DNA from: a virus
Direction: 5' to 3' (one strand)
IMG/VR virus record: IMGVR_UViG_3300027306_000017
Location: 1 to 21,569 of that record
Length of the DNA: 21,569 nucleotides
The notes beneath the pieces were generated by a model. That model saw only the letters and a list, made by a program, of their open reading frames with translations, made no database searches and was not told the origin of the DNA. The position numbers were made by a program, and so were the translations under genes. This document shows positions 298-16,839 of the stretch, piece by piece; position 1 is the first letter of the stretch, and the number at the start of each line of letters is the position of its first letter.

Positions 298-560
298 GTT
301 TTTTTCTTAGTCAACTGAATTGTAAGAATCGTTGCGCATCCAATTAGATGCCCAGCCTGGATCAGAGCTGCGATCCCATCATGCTTTACGACGCCAAAAT
401 ATAGAATTGAGATCAAAGAACATAGAGTCCAAAGCGCCCATCCGAAGATGTTTGTATCGCTTTCTTTTGATTTCAACATCGTGACAACATTTGGGACATA
501 TCCAATCAGAACGATGAATCCAACAGTCATGAAAGCATACGTGATAAGTGTGTCAATCAT
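294..560 (-). CDS. SemiSWEET/PQ-loop-like three-helix membrane protein
   Basis: 88 residues, about the size of a bacterial SemiSWEET half-transporter. Three hydrophobic helices are visible: about 8-29, 38-58 and 61-82. The first contains Pro23-Asn24 in the context GYVPNVVTMLKSK, matching the PQ/PN signature at the end of helix 1 in the PQ-loop/SWEET superfamily. A short polar loop with SKESD follows, then a Trp-rich second helix. Known SemiSWEETs dimerise to carry small sugars, and the nicotinamide riboside transporter PnuC shares this fold. The substrate here is unknown. The ATG overlaps the stop of the upstream nucleotidyltransferase gene (ATGA), so it is translationally coupled and is the last gene of unit E. 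The fold call is by motif and topology only. Confidence 0.7.
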   Translation of the reverse strand: MIDTLITYAFMTVGFIVLIGYVPNVVTMLKSKESDTNIFGWALWTLCSLISILYFGVVKHDGIAALIQAGHLIGCATILTIQLTKKKT

Positions 561-1543
561 AGAAAACCTTCTTCCTTAGCAAATTTGATGATTTGATATG
601 ATACATCCTCGGAAGTCATATATTCCATTTCTTCTTTCGAGACAACTGTCAAGAATTTAGACATGAACACAGACAGATCTTTTCCTGAGAGATTTGGTAC
701 AAGATTCATGACGACAGATCCATTGAAAATTGATCGAACATACTCAGATTTTATCCAATTTCTGATGATCATTTCGTATTCATCAAAGCAGTCAAACTTC
801 AAGAAAACTCGAGAAAGATAAGAAACAGATGGCATCCATTGATAGTCTTTAGATCCATCCAATTCATTGAGTTTTTCTGCAAATTGAAGGAATGCAGTGT
901 AAGTCTTCCTCTTTCGATCTCGCATTCTTGCTTTTGCATTTCGATTATCTAGATCGAAGATGTCATATGAATAGAATTTTGATGAAACGACATATTCAAA
1001 GATGTCATCAAGTGTTTCAAATCCAGACTTCCAAGTTTCATAGCTGTAATCCCCGAATTCGAGAATTTCTTTGATGTCCTTCGATAGACAGATTTCTCCA
1101 ATGACACGCGTCTCATTCATGACACAAAGCCATAGACCATCATGTCCAAACTTCAATCCCATCTTATGGTAGATTCGACCTACTAGATTTCCAAGATCGT
1201 TGTATGCAAAATATGCACTTGCAATGTCCATGTCTTCTTTGGGCAAGAAGATGAAGTCAATTTGAACATTCTCATAATCGAAAGAATAGCAGTTTGAATT
1301 CTGAACGATTTCAAGAGGAGCGTATGCAGATTGGATGATTTCTTTCCTACGATCATCGTTGACTCCGATAGAAAGCAAGACATCGATATCTCCATGGCTC
1401 GGCTTTTGATGATAAGACTTTACCAGTCTTACATCTGATCCCGGGAAAATTGTCTGAGCAATGCAAACAATCTTTCCACTCAGATGCTTATATTCTTCAG
1501 AGTTGACTCGGCGAGTTTCAAAAGAAAGAGCATTACCTCCCAT
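557..1543 (-). CDS. Putative pol-beta-fold nucleotidyltransferase
   Basis: 328 residues. The N-terminus reads MGGNALSFETRR. The catalytic pattern of the polymerase-beta nucleotidyltransferase superfamily is visible: Gly51-Asp52-Ile53-Asp54 after SYHQKPSH (the hG..DxD metal site) and a third acidic residue, Asp96, in VQIDFIF. The usual serine of the hGS motif is not obvious; Ser49-His50 sits just before the glycine. The remaining 200 residues look helical and basic in places (RMRDRKRKT around 206-214), which would suit binding a nucleic acid. Such enzymes move nucleotides onto RNA, protein or small molecules; the substrate cannot be read here. The start overlaps the end of the upstream gene by 11 bases and the stop overlaps the next start (ATGA), so it is mid-operon in unit E. 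Confidence 0.7.
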   Translation of the reverse strand: MGGNALSFETRRVNSEEYKHLSGKIVCIAQTIFPGSDVRLVKSYHQKPSHGDIDVLLSIGVNDDRRKEIIQSAYAPLEIVQNSNCYSFDYENVQIDFIFLPKEDMDIASAYFAYNDLGNLVGRIYHKMGLKFGHDGLWLCVMNETRVIGEICLSKDIKEILEFGDYSYETWKSGFETLDDIFEYVVSSKFYSYDIFDLDNRNAKARMRDRKRKTYTAFLQFAEKLNELDGSKDYQWMPSVSYLSRVFLKFDCFDEYEMIIRNWIKSEYVRSIFNGSVVMNLVPNLSGKDLSVFMSKFLTVVSKEEMEYMTSEDVSYQIIKFAKEEGFL

Positions 1544-2954: not shown

Positions 2955-4451
2955 TCAAGCCAATGCAATCTGATCTGCAGCGTACTTCTGGATGCCGGAT
3001 CGTGCTTCAATGAAATTCGGTTCGTTGAAGATTTCTCCATCTTCAAAAACAACTGCCATCATGTCAACATCAGTAGGCAAAACATCTTCGATACGAACAG
3101 ACACAAACTCACCTTCGCGCATGACGGTAGTGATACGACCACGCAAAGAAGTCTTACCAGGATCGGTGATCGGTTCTTTATAGATGTCCTTCCACTCGCC
3201 ATCAACATTGATTGCTGCACCCTTCATTGCATACTTCATCCAATCTCGATCGCAGTGCTGGAGCAATCCACCTCCCATACCGAAAACGATGTTTTCTGCT
3301 GAAATGCCGTTCAACTTCAAGTGTTCAAGAATTTCAGGGATGCTGTAGAGGTTGATGCCATCACCCTGAAGAACTCGGATACAATCAGGAAGAACACGAT
3401 AGCCCTTCTTATTGATCGTGTATCCAAACCCTTCCATCAAAATTTCGATAATCTGAAGAACAACATCTTTCGGAACTCCAGAGTCTGGACGTACAACGAA
3501 TCGACCGCCGCTTTGCTCAATTTGCTCCTTGAAATCGGTCGAAACCCACTTTGCAAAGCGGAATGGTTCGTAAAGATCTGCAACAGCAGAAACGATAGCG
3601 CCTTTGCCTCGCTTGGAAAGCAAATTAACAGCCATCCGCAAAGCTTCATAATCGTTCTTAGTAGCAGCGTCCGCATTCGCTCCCATCACGGAGTGTTCGG
3701 TAGCAAGAACAGAGAATGCAGGCATGCTTGCATCATCTGCTTCGTCTAGACCGTAGAAATCATAGAGAACAGCAATCGCTTGCATGGTATCCGTGCCAAA
3801 GAAACTGAGCAAGTGACCAGAACCACCACCTGCGGACTCTACAGAAGAAACGCCTCGGAAACCGAAATCATGCAAAGCAAAATCAAGGCCACCTTGTCGA
3901 TCATCGTCGACAGTTTCTTTCCAGTATTTCCCGATGTTGATCCGACTCTGCAAAGAAATCGATGCAACAGTGGACGCGTGCCAACTTTGAAGCCAAAGAG
4001 GTTCAAAGTAAGACACAAGCCATCCAAAGCGAGAATCGGTGCATTCGACAGTGAAAGGAGCAACATTTGCTCGAGTCACAGAACCTTCAGGAATTGCACG
4101 AACTCGAAGAGGAAGATTACCGCCAAATTCAGTCACGATGGTATTCCAGCCTTCTTCATTGAAGATACCAGGACCAAGGTGACGATCGGAGAATCGTTTT
4201 GCACGCCTCACATCGGCCATCGTGAGCTTTTTAGAGAAGCAACGACGCAAAATCAGATTGAGTCCCCAGAAAACTGCTTTATCAAGTCCTTTGATGAAAC
4301 CACGCGGGCCAGCATAGGAAAAGAAACCTTGAGTACCGTCTGGCAGCATGAGCCAGTGGCCGATCTTGTAAGAATCAGTCTTGAGAATCATGTTCTCAGA
4401 AAGAAAACCAATATCAAGAAGACTTTGATCAATACCTTTATCACTCCACAT
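2955..4451 (-). CDS. nadV: Nicotinamide phosphoribosyltransferase (NAMPT)
   Basis: 498 residues, the family's usual length. It joins nicotinamide and PRPP to make NMN, the first step of NAD+ salvage. Conserved landmarks (from the ATG): TDSYK near 25-29; LHDFGFRGVSSVESAGGG with substrate Asp195; His253 in ATEHSVMGA, matching the histidine that human NAMPT phosphorylates (H247); VVRPDSG with Arg321 and Asp323; QGDG at 362-365; and FGMGGGLLQ. All catalytic residues that I can check are present. I chose ATG 4451, not the upstream TTG at 4466, because GAAGGAG sits 6 bases before this ATG. It is the last gene of unit D, 48 bases after the NMN adenylyltransferase gene. Phage homologues are known, for example NadV of vibriophage KVP40. 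Confidence 0.96.
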   Translation of the reverse strand: MWSDKGIDQSLLDIGFLSENMILKTDSYKIGHWLMLPDGTQGFFSYAGPRGFIKGLDKAVFWGLNLILRRCFSKKLTMADVRRAKRFSDRHLGPGIFNEEGWNTIVTEFGGNLPLRVRAIPEGSVTRANVAPFTVECTDSRFGWLVSYFEPLWLQSWHASTVASISLQSRINIGKYWKETVDDDRQGGLDFALHDFGFRGVSSVESAGGGSGHLLSFFGTDTMQAIAVLYDFYGLDEADDASMPAFSVLATEHSVMGANADAATKNDYEALRMAVNLLSKRGKGAIVSAVADLYEPFRFAKWVSTDFKEQIEQSGGRFVVRPDSGVPKDVVLQIIEILMEGFGYTINKKGYRVLPDCIRVLQGDGINLYSIPEILEHLKLNGISAENIVFGMGGGLLQHCDRDWMKYAMKGAAINVDGEWKDIYKEPITDPGKTSLRGRITTVMREGEFVSVRIEDVLPTDVDMMAVVFEDGEIFNEPNFIEARSGIQKYAADQIALA

Positions 4452-4468
4452 TTGAAACTCCTTCAAAT
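4450..4468 (-). promoter_or_regulatory. Hairpin with Shine-Dalgarno in its loop at the nadV start
   Basis: On the minus-strand RNA: stem ATTTGAA / TTCAAAT (7 perfect pairs) closing the loop GGAGT, which holds the Shine-Dalgarno core. The first two bases of the start codon are paired in the 3' arm. The same design with a different outer stem is found at the partner gene (5547-5565). Confidence 0.6.
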
Positions 4469-4499
4469 TTTAGAATCCAAAAAGCGGGATTCTTTCGCT

Positions 4500-5549
4500 T
4501 TAGAAACTGATGAACTTTGAGACAATCATGAAGTGATCTTCATAGAATTGATCTCGACATTCGTAAACTTCTTGAAGAGGCATCCACCATGCTTTTTCTG
4601 CATCATCTTCACCACGAACATGAGGCAAATCAACATGATCTGCAAGCTTGAAGAAGTAAGCATTTGTGACTGTACGTCCTCGTTCCGATCGAGCAGGATC
4701 ATCAAAAATTTCAAATCCGGCGATCGAGCCGCGAAGAACCTTGTCTGGAACTTTCAGTCCAGTTTCTTCACGAAGTTCTCGGATACACCCGTCAATAATT
4801 CGCTCATTCTGATTCAAAAACCCACCAGGGAGAGCTACAAGACCTTTTCCTGGATTTCCTTTTCGTTTGATAACCAGAAGATGTCCTGATTGTACCACGA
4901 CCGCATCTGTTGTCAAGAAGATAGGAGGAAAAGGAGCAGCTTCCCACGACTTCTTATATGCCTTGATGAATTCGTATTCTTGTTGAAGAGACTTCCATTC
5001 ATCAGATTCGCGGAACTTCTTCAAAAACTCGATCGTTGTTTCTGGAAGAAAACAATGTGCATCTTCATCGGAAGCATTGATGTTGAAGTAAATGTCTCGA
5101 ATGTAGGTTGCAGACAAAAATTCTTCACCATTCATCAGAGCAGGAACGACAATTGGTTTCCAATTCTTGAACCAGAAAGGATAGCTTGTTTCTTCTTCTT
5201 TCGAAGAACACACGATTTCAATCTCAGACTTCGATCCATCCATCTGAGCAACGGATGTAAATTGCTTGACAATTTTCTGAACCTTTGCGAGCCAAGCAAC
5301 ATTATCTGGCTGATCTTCCATTGGCTGGATTACGATCTTGCCTGCTAGACTAGGATCTTGCTTGATCCATTTCTCGAGAATCTTGCGACGATCATCGTAT
5401 GTGAAAGGATTTTTCAAATTACGAGAACGGTATGCAGATCCGATGATGATAATCAGAAGGTCAGCGCCGTCTGCTGCTTTCTTGATTGTTTCACAATGGC
5501 CGATGTGCAAAGGCGACATTCGACCGATAAAAACTCGAACTTTCTTCAT
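4500..5549 (-). CDS. nadM: Bifunctional NMN adenylyltransferase / Nudix hydrolase
   Basis: 349 residues, two domains. Residues 1-200 are an NMN adenylyltransferase (NMN + ATP to NAD+): GRMSPLHIGH at 9-18 matches the (H/T)xGH nucleotide-binding motif, and LSATYIRD near 145-152 matches the second ATP-binding motif. Residues 205-349 are a Nudix hydrolase with a perfect Nudix box (G243, E249, R257-E258-L259, E261-E262, G264-L265) after LPGGF. The fusion matches the NadM-Nudix type, known as NatV in phage KVP40, whose Nudix half acts on ADP-ribose-like compounds. It starts at ATG 5549 with GGAG 5 bases upstream, inside a hairpin. It is the middle gene of unit D, 32 bases after the HD gene. Together with nadV it forms a nicotinamide-to-NAD+ route that phages use against NAD-depleting defences (NARP2). 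Confidence 0.95.
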   Translation of the reverse strand: MKKVRVFIGRMSPLHIGHCETIKKAADGADLLIIIIGSAYRSRNLKNPFTYDDRRKILEKWIKQDPSLAGKIVIQPMEDQPDNVAWLAKVQKIVKQFTSVAQMDGSKSEIEIVCSSKEEETSYPFWFKNWKPIVVPALMNGEEFLSATYIRDIYFNINASDEDAHCFLPETTIEFLKKFRESDEWKSLQQEYEFIKAYKKSWEAAPFPPIFLTTDAVVVQSGHLLVIKRKGNPGKGLVALPGGFLNQNERIIDGCIRELREETGLKVPDKVLRGSIAGFEIFDDPARSERGRTVTNAYFFKLADHVDLPHVRGEDDAEKAWWMPLQEVYECRDQFYEDHFMIVSKFISF

Positions 5550-5565
5550 AGAAACTCCTTCTATG
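5547..5565 (-). promoter_or_regulatory. Hairpin with Shine-Dalgarno in its loop at the nadM start
   Basis: On the minus-strand RNA: stem CATAGAA / TTCTATG (7 perfect pairs) closing the loop GGAGT. The entire ATG start codon forms the end of the 3' arm. It shares loop and inner three pairs with the hairpin at the nadV start, while the outer pairs differ but still match. Confidence 0.6.
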
Positions 5566-5581
5566 TTGTTGATAAATCTAT

Positions 5582-6256
5582 TTAGCCTGCCTGGCTAACA
5601 TCTCCAATGATGTATGTCTGATGAATTTCCATCATCTGTTCAATTGAAAATTTGATGATTTCGGCCTTAGACGAAAGAGTTGGATCATATCGCCGAATCT
5701 TCTTGAGCAATGGAATTACATATTTTTCTGTCTCTTGGATGTAAGATTCAATCTTTGCCTCAGAAAACACTCCAGGCATCGTAGATAGATTGTTTTCGCG
5801 ATCAATGACCTTCACAATCGCAGCCGCCAAATGCAATTCGAGGTTTCCAAGATTTTCGTAATAAGAATCGGTCGTTTGAAACTTGTTCTTATCCAAAGTT
5901 TCCATTTCAGCAAGCAAATTGAGACCACAGATTTTTTCAATCTCATTGAAGATGTATTCACGATTTCCATCGGACTTTGCATCCTCGAGAAGATCATGAC
6001 CAAGACAGATTGATACAAGATCCCCAGCAAATCCGATATCATAAGACTCGAAAATGTTTGCCGCTCGAAGAGCGAGAGCAATTGGATGAGAACGTTCTGG
6101 AGTGAATCCATCCTTACGATACTTGCCATCTGTCACGTTCTCAAGAAGAGCCATCATCTTGTATGCACGTTTCCATTCAACATTATCCGGAGATCCCCGA
6201 ACCACACCTTCAATGTAATAACGAAGAGCAATACGTTGTTTATCAAATCGTTGCAT
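5582..6256 (-). CDS. SpoT/MESH1-like HD-domain nucleotide hydrolase
   Basis: 224 residues. The metal-binding pattern of the RelA/SpoT-type HD hydrolases is present in order: Arg47 (KYRKDG), His57 (SHPIALALRA), His87-Asp88 with Glu91-Asp92 (GHDLLEDAK), and Asp152 with Asn156 (VIDRENN), matching SpoT's R, H, HDxxED and DRLHN. No synthetase or regulatory domain follows, so it is a single-domain protein like MESH1 or a small alarmone hydrolase. Those enzymes hydrolyse (p)ppGpp, and metazoan MESH1 also acts on NADPH. ATG 6256 is chosen because GGAGA lies 7 bases upstream; an upstream TTG at 6268 would contain that site. It is first in unit D, ahead of the two NAD genes. The substrate is inferred only. 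Confidence 0.8.
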   Translation of the reverse strand: MQRFDKQRIALRYYIEGVVRGSPDNVEWKRAYKMMALLENVTDGKYRKDGFTPERSHPIALALRAANIFESYDIGFAGDLVSICLGHDLLEDAKSDGNREYIFNEIEKICGLNLLAEMETLDKNKFQTTDSYYENLGNLELHLAAAIVKVIDRENNLSTMPGVFSEAKIESYIQETEKYVIPLLKKIRRYDPTLSSKAEIIKFSIEQMMEIHQTYIIGDVSQAG

Positions 6257-6279
6257 ATAAGTCTCCAAATTGTTTCATA

Positions 6280-6308
6280 ATGATATGATCTTCTGACATC
6301 GATGTCAA
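6280..6308 (-). promoter_or_regulatory. Early-type promoter of the HD-NAD operon with palindromic operator-like site
   Basis: Minus strand: -35 TTGACA (6303-6308, perfect), 17-base spacer, -10 TATCAT (6280-6285). The -35 is embedded in a perfect 14-base palindrome, TGACATCGATGTCA (6294-6307), covering five of the six -35 bases and half of the spacer. This is a natural position for a repressor to block the polymerase. No other early promoter in the window has this palindrome. Confidence 0.8.
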
Positions 6309-6312
6309 TATC

Positions 6313-6555
6313 TTATGAATTCATATCTTCAATTGTAACCAGATCGATATGATTACTTTTGATCCATGCATCGAGATCAAAATCATCCGGAAAAACAATA
6401 GTCTCTACTTGAAGTCCATCGCCAGATGCGTAAGTCTCATCACCTTCGTTAGCCAGATCTTCCATCATATCAATTACTGCCGAGTCTTTGACCCAGCGAA
6501 TATGAGATGATCCATCTCCAGAATTGCAGATTACAAAATTGATAGATTGAGGCAT
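6313..6555 (-). CDS. Small acidic hypothetical protein
   Basis: 80 residues, strongly acidic (clusters such as DMMEDLANEGDE and FPDDFDLDAW). The N-terminal half reads like beta strands (INFVICNSGDGSSHIRWVK) and the C-terminal third like helix. I chose ATG 6555, not an upstream TTG at 6570, because the GGAG Shine-Dalgarno lies between them. The stop of the AAA+ gene and this ATG share one base (TAATG), a classic coupling arrangement, so it may be a partner or regulator of the ATPase. It is the last gene of unit C. No named family. Confidence 0.7.
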   Translation of the reverse strand: MPQSINFVICNSGDGSSHIRWVKDSAVIDMMEDLANEGDETYASGDGLQVETIVFPDDFDLDAWIKSNHIDLVTIEDMNS

Positions 6556-15804: not shown

Positions 15805-16839
15805 TTATTCTCCGTCACGATTTACATGAGCATGCCAGAGTCTTGTAATTGTAAAATTGTGGTTGACGTGATATTCTGGTTCTGGATGAACATGGATAAC
15901 ATGGCCTTTGTCCAGAACATATTCTTTTTCTTCATCGCCAACAACAGGATTCAGAGAATCATGTGAAATATAGAGTCCTCTTTGATGTCCAGCAGGGACT
16001 TTGATCTTTAGGACATCTTCAACTTCTTGATGGTCTCCAAATTTGATTTGACTATCGATGTTTGGCTTAGGATGTGTGAAGTTAGATGTAACTCTAGGGT
16101 CGACAGATGATGATGTAAATCCAGGAAAATGAACGGCTTTCGTGCTTGTCGATCCGTTCATGATTTCGTGCATATCTGTTCTCTTTCCAAGTCCAGTATA
16201 GACATAGAAATCTGACTGTGGCTTATGAGGAGCATTTCTAATTAGATCGCTGAATTCTTTGATTCTAGATCTAATAACATGCTCTGGGTCATAATGGATG
16301 AATTCATCCGCCTCGGCGTCAGATTTGAAATTTCCGAAATCTTTTCTTAGAAGATTGTTCATTCCTCTGTGAGTTTCTGCTTCTTGATTGCTATAGTAAT
16401 GAATGAGTTCGGCTGTGGATTCTAGATGGCCATTTCTATCCCAGTGTCTTGCATTCTTTCCTGCAATTTCAATGTGAGGAAGTTCATTGTCATAATTGTG
16501 AATTGGGAATGATTTCGGTTTTTTCTTTATGGATGCAATCGGAGAATAAGAATCGCCATGTCTTTGATGAGGATTTGATTGCATTTGATCATCTTGTCTA
16601 TAGAGATATCCGTTCTTTCCAGGATAGAATCCATGATTTGTTGCATGAATCAGTTCTGATCTAGAGAATACTTTCTGATGATTCTCGATTGGATCAAGAA
16701 TATCATCTGCACTCGGTTCGATTTTTTCTTCGTTCAATTTAGAAACTCGACCTTCCGATTTACCATCCAAAGCCTGTGGAAGAGACTCTTTCCAAATCCT
16801 CTTCCGCATCTCGATGTAAGCATTTTCGATCAGTTTCAT
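15805..16839 (-). CDS. ADP-ribosyltransferase, probably injected with the virion
   Basis: 344 residues. The C-terminal half (about 205-325) carries the R-S-E type ADP-ribosyltransferase layout: DFYVYTGLGKR (210-220) at motif 1, FPGFTSSSVDP (238-248) as the S-T-S motif, DVLKIKVPAGHQRGLYI (275-291), and the catalytic ExE as Glu304-Lys-Glu306 in DEEKEYVLDKGH. The usual motif 1 arginine (YRG) is replaced by Thr215, though Arg220 lies close by. The N-terminal half is basic and His/Asn-rich with no clear fold. It lies between small structural genes, as for virion-carried enzymes such as T4 Alt, which modify host proteins at the start of infection using NAD+. Start ATG 16839, two bases after the upstream gene; Shine-Dalgarno weak. 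Confidence 0.78.
   Translation of the reverse strand: MKLIENAYIEMRKRIWKESLPQALDGKSEGRVSKLNEEKIEPSADDILDPIENHQKVFSRSELIHATNHGFYPGKNGYLYRQDDQMQSNPHQRHGDSYSPIASIKKKPKSFPIHNYDNELPHIEIAGKNARHWDRNGHLESTAELIHYYSNQEAETHRGMNNLLRKDFGNFKSDAEADEFIHYDPEHVIRSRIKEFSDLIRNAPHKPQSDFYVYTGLGKRTDMHEIMNGSTSTKAVHFPGFTSSSVDPRVTSNFTHPKPNIDSQIKFGDHQEVEDVLKIKVPAGHQRGLYISHDSLNPVVGDEEKEYVLDKGHVIHVHPEPEYHVNHNFTITRLWHAHVNRDGE

Follow-up and report, generated by a model that had tools for sequence, protein, structure and literature searches.

Gene content and transcription signals of the locus

The window analysed here, i.e. the entire stretch of DNA under study, is a 21,569-base IMG/VR record of a phage that can be placed among the T4-like myoviruses, as it encodes UvsW (PF21241) and a large virion protein. 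The nearest match of the latter is to Synechococcus phage BUCT-ZZ01, and a DNA-level search of phage records recovered none near the window. Its minus strand carries a three-gene array, in the order HD-natV-nadV, with the following features:

6280-6308, minus strand: strong sigma-70-type promoter (TTGACA-17-TATCAT, 11/12 consensus) preceding the HD gene
5582-6256, minus strand: stand-alone RelA/SpoT-type HD hydrolase (SAH-like), 224 aa, PHROG 15275; start ATG 6256 with a GGAG ribosome site
4500-5549, minus strand: bifunctional NMN adenylyltransferase-Nudix hydrolase (NatV/NadM type), 349 aa; PF01467 and PF00293
4889-4916, minus strand: internal promoter-like site inside the NMNAT gene, TG-extended TTGACA-16-TACAAT, 11/12 consensus
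2955-4451, minus strand: NAMPT/NadV, 498 aa from ATG 4451 (or TTG 4466); PF04095 and PF18127
2917-2942, minus strand: intrinsic terminator-like hairpin GAAAAGGGCCU-UUCG-GGCCCUUUUC, 11 pairs with a U-rich 3' arm

All genes claimed by an earlier note on this DNA, together with its promoter and terminator, were recovered on the minus strand near the positions it gave. The NAMPT start is more likely ATG 4451, because the TTG at 4466 that had been listed overlaps an AAGGAG ribosome site. Promoter sites with at least 11 of the 12 consensus positions number nine on the minus strand of the window and zero on the plus strand; shuffled sequences lead one to expect 0.33 per strand, and hence the minus-strand sites as a group exceed chance. 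The hairpin has a folding energy of -18.9 kcal/mol (z -4.55), with zero shuffles equally stable, and the intergenic gaps within the trio are 32 and 48 nt. From the promoter, the terminator and these short gaps we infer that HD, natV and nadV are co-transcribed. The proposal of a single promoter and a single terminator stands as regards the upstream promoter and the hairpin, but the site at 4916-4889 makes a second, internal promoter for NAMPT possible; thus, the trio may be driven by one main and one internal promoter.

The NMNAT-Nudix protein aligns over its full length with the bifunctional NMN adenylyltransferase/Nudix hydrolase of PDB 2qjo (E 5e-78) and retains both the HxGH motif and the Nudix box, which are invariant in alignment A2. 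The window NAMPT matches 7yqo (E 9e-104), passes the score cut-off of NF006629 and has its key motifs intact; its best solved relatives are NAMPTs, and the NMNAT gene adjoins it, two observations that bear on its putative use of PRPP, as opposed to an identity with the NARP1 enzyme Namat. On sequence grounds the identity of this pair is certain, and it is ordinary in phages: among 50,697 phage records NAMPT occurs in 1,902 and the NMNAT-Nudix fusion in 462. NARP2 consists of NAMPT plus NMNAT, and the full-length homology, adjacent genes and intact motifs bear out the earlier reading of the two genes as a NAD+ salvage pair of this kind. Canonical salvage (Nampt, then Nmnat) has been described along with NARP1 (PMC12774641), and the Thoeris system is curbed by both NARP1 and NARP2 (PMC12043709). 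As in the window, NatV is followed by NAMPT on one strand in the NARP2/canonical pairs of phages Milchi, Astolliot and GAP32, and the window NAMPT is 53-55% identical to those of Milchi and Astolliot. In those three phages, however, no HD gene lies immediately ahead of the pair, so that the window adds a first gene to it.

Further genes of the window also deserve mention. Upstream of the HD gene lie a small phrog_13236 gene (6313-6570, minus strand) and a gene for an AAA ATPase (phrog_2376; 6555-7676, minus strand). Models of defence systems run on the window gave weak matches to the Nudix and ATPase parts and zero to the HD protein. For a 344-aa orphan at 15805-16839 (minus strand), the searched collections contained no relatives. 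Visual inspection of its second half suggests the motif order of an R-S-E ADP-ribosyltransferase (YVYTGLG, FTSSS, EEKEY), which, if real, would make it a NAD+ consumer of the phage; its single-sequence model (pLDDT 37) was too poor to bear on the ADP-ribosyltransferase idea.

The stand-alone HD protein and its relatives

A Pfam search with the HD protein gave zero matches, PF13328 (HD_4) included, and on its own the protein retrieves weak sequence matches to small alarmone hydrolases (SAHs; E about 0.01). It does match PHROG 15275 (E 4e-20), and PF13328 is matched by 21 of the 24 members of the HD family, the window protein not being among them. The family profile in turn retrieves Rel (7oiw, E 8e-13), PaSAH (6yvc, E 1e-11) and MESH1 (3nr1, E 7e-6) from the PDB, as well as SpoT. 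An AlphaFold (AF2) model of the HD protein (pLDDT 91.8) adopts the all-helical RSH hydrolase fold, for which Foldseek returned PaSAH (6yvc), TdSAH (7p1y) and SpoT (7qpr) as the best structures. VIA-align Z scores were 19.5 for SpoT, 17.9 for PaSAH and 16.3 for MESH1, whereas HD/PDE folds of other kinds reach about 11.

Eight residues, namely H57, H87, D88, E91, D92, K149, D152 and N156, are invariant in a set of 16 diverse RSH-type HD proteins from phages, and R47 is invariant in the 24-member family. We take H57, H87, D88 and D152 to be the metal ligands, and E91-D92 the catalytic pair, of RSH hydrolases, as is also seen in the profile alignments. A single HD domain fills the 224 aa, and synthetase, TGS and ACT domains are absent. 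The fold matches and the kept residues point to an RSH-type hydrolase whose active site is intact. Judged from these alignments and the predicted structure, the protein is a stand-alone hydrolase of the SAH type that retains its metal and catalytic residues. The SpoT/MESH1-like identity proposed earlier is thereby upheld, with profile, AF2 model, structure matches and invariant residues in agreement; of the solved structures, those of bacterial SAH and SpoT come closer to the protein than MESH1 does, by profile, Foldseek and VIA-align alike.

Comparison with known SAHs (PaSAH 6yvc, Treponema SAH 7p1y, XccSAH, PaSpo-SSU5 and the SAH of Pseudomonas phage Adele) shows a common stand-alone RSH-type fold, like metal and catalytic residues and a single domain of about 200 aa. 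The window protein differs from them in having about 20% identity to the solved ones, a long branch and no HxG histidine, and in being located in a predicted NAD+ salvage transcript. Its end branch measures 2.36, whereas that of its nearest kin is 0.6; it carries short insertions, and H42 of the HxG motif, nearly invariant in the family, is lost from it. The long branch, the loss of H42 and the missing PF13328 match suggest that its activity may have shifted. With MESH1, the metazoan SpoT homologue and NADPH phosphatase, it has the fold and catalytic core in common (Z 16.3), but bacterial SAH and SpoT match it better than MESH1 does. Past the D-x3-N motif no gaps are needed to align it with PaSAH, and this stretch is presumably longer in MESH1 than in the window protein.

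Searching IMG/VR with the window HD protein alone gave zero close relatives, and bacterial relatives came to only six metagenome-assembled loci, five from uncultured Bacilli and one from Oscillospiraceae. By tblastn, 31 phage records were recovered, nearly all of them jumbo phages of about 337-469 kb, and the window protein falls in the same clade (support 99/95) as the PHROG 15275 proteins of RaK2, CBB, GAP32, Munch and BF. Unlike in the window, the jumbo-phage genes lie inside a conserved block (L001, L003, L004, L032-L041) of the order Dam - cytidyltransferase - HD - (phrog_18122) - phrog_16105 - RNA ligase - PNK. The AAA ATPase (phrog_2376) was considered as a conserved partner of HD in jumbo phages and rejected: in XbC2 and CBB, HD is followed by phrog_18122, which is unrelated to the ATPase by BLAST.

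The Dam-to-PNK block hints at an RNA-repair role for the PHROG 15275 family, and with it at a reading in which the window HD protein repairs tRNA by removing the pyrophosphate that defence toxins of the toxSAS/CapRel type put on 3'-CCA ends. Such an activity is known from PaSpo, the phage SAH of Salmonella phage SSU5 (PMC11559606), and the RaK2/CBB-type relatives share their block with an RNA ligase and a polynucleotide kinase. PaSpo-SSU5, however, sits on another branch than the window protein (hhalign E 3e-6, 18% identity), and zero RNA-repair neighbours were detected around HD in the window or in its nearest kin. We regard tRNA repair as unlikely, though it is the foremost of the alternatives.

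Proximity of HD and NAD+ salvage genes

The closest relative of the window region is L042, together with three near-identical contigs, with identities of 59% for NAMPT, 56% for a UvsY-like protein and 36% for HD. A nucleotidyltransferase-like gene of the window (557-1543, minus strand; phrog_24943) is also 48% identical to its L042 counterpart and rare elsewhere. The L042 group has the order HD-ATPase-natV-nadV on one strand, with separate promoter-like sites at HD and natV; relative to the window the order of HD and ATPase is reversed, while the rest of the region is syntenic. This is the only relative (four near-identical contigs) in which HD, ATPase, natV and nadV stand side by side. In view of the swap and the separate promoter-like sites, the trio as a single predicted transcript has been seen once. 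The placement of an HD gene ahead of the NAD pair is unusual, as had been supposed, and the predicted HD-natV-nadV transcript was met in the window phage alone; the suggested survey for recurrence of the order did not meet it as a single transcript in the other phages surveyed.

We surveyed the closeness of RSH-type HD genes to the NAD pair in 24 records outside the profile building, with lineages thinned by hand. Given a profile built partly from HD genes near NAMPT, and uniform placing as the null, which is a weak one for accessory genes, HD lies at most 3 kb from the pair in 1 of the 24 records (1.25 expected), at most 13 kb in 11 (4.2 expected) and at most 25 kb in 16 (7.2 expected). HD and NAD genes are co-regional beyond uniform placing, yet not generally paired, and the count at 3 kb does not support a rule by which HD and NAMPT would be tightly paired. 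In the RaK2/CBB/GAP32 group HD is about 20 kb from natV-nadV. When records with a full-length HD were searched whole, most were without a NAMPT match and the others had it 10 to >100 kb away, a count that fragments limit. A general tie of the PHROG 15275 family to NAD genes is not sustained by these records.

These patterns bear on the possibility that HD is a chance neighbour of natV-nadV, brought there by shuffling of accessory genes and unlinked to NAD. The HD/ATPase swap within an otherwise syntenic region, the single occurrence of the trio and the co-regionality without adjacency are all consistent with this; the short gaps and the common promoter and terminator signals suggest instead an order that is in use. 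We consider a chance association unlikely, ranking it after tRNA repair.

The same survey weighs on a third alternative, in which HD is a NADPH/NADP+ 2'-phosphatase that converts NADP(H) to NAD(H) as a third source for the NAD+ refill. The placement of the gene in a NAD operon speaks for it, as do the dephosphorylation of NADPH by MESH1 and XccSAH (PMC9765508, PMC9965611) and SAH-type HD genes of other branches within a few kb of natV-nadV in other phages (389-kb contig, L089). However, most HD-family records have NAMPT far away or not at all, and HD is no commoner within 3 kb of the pair than under uniform placing. Moreover, the activity of XccSAH on NADPH is about 40-fold weaker than that of Mesh1, and NADPH is a >1000-fold weaker substrate for it than ppGpp or pppApp (kinetics in PMC9765508). 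A direct NADPH-to-NAD role is a possible one that the wider gene context does not favour, and we place it last among the readings, as improbable. In the specific form of this reading, the HD enzyme would be a NADP(H) 2'-phosphatase taken up into a NARP2 operon, and NADP(H), which some of the NAD+-cleaving defences may leave untouched, would serve the phage as a reserve for the refill; this we hold to be quite improbable.

Among other arrangements, NatV, NAMPT and an SAH-like HD of another branch stand in a row on the 389-kb contig (L266 4928-10081, record G074), where a gene reading like an adenine phosphoribosyltransferase follows further downstream. At L089 (12522-13094) a MESH1-like phage gene lies 4 kb downstream of natV-nadV.

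Predicted function and implications

Alarmones are the default substrate of the family, since the Treponema SAH (PMC10434055) and XccSAH (PMC9765508) both hydrolyse (pp)pGpp and (p)ppApp. Our preferred reading, to which we give slightly better than even chances, is that one transcript serves two parallel functions: an active SAH that clears alarmones, and NAD+ refill. Alarmone hydrolysis in parallel to salvage is thus ranked first, followed by tRNA repair and chance neighbourhood, and then by NADPH dephosphorylation. Under the preferred reading of parallel alarmone clearance and salvage, the HD protein would be an active, probably Mn2+-dependent SAH that strips the 3'-pyrophosphate from (p)ppGpp and probably (p)ppApp, and the loss of alarmones would free transcription, translation and nucleotide synthesis from stress-induced restraint in the infected cell. 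By NARP2/canonical salvage, NAMPT together with the NMNAT domain would convert nicotinamide, PRPP and ATP to NAD+; ADP-ribose, which defences that cleave NAD+ also release, could be cleaved by the Nudix domain. The two activities would run side by side rather than in sequence, with a promoter in common. Both the substrates and the counter-defence role of the trio are predictions from family membership and gene context.

SAH and NARP1 are known to co-occur in a Pseudomonas phage (PMC12846349); hence, an SAH combined with NAD+ refill in a single phage is not new. The parts of the locus are all of known kinds, and what appears new, within the scope searched, is the sharing of a transcript between an SAH and the NAMPT-NMNAT pair. 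PHROG 15275, which is listed as of unknown function, would accordingly be recast as a large phage SAH family with a predicted full catalytic site. Provided that the transcript functions as a unit, the phage would use a single promoter to answer two alarm strategies of its host, one based on alarmone or tRNA pyrophosphorylation and the other on NAD+ depletion.
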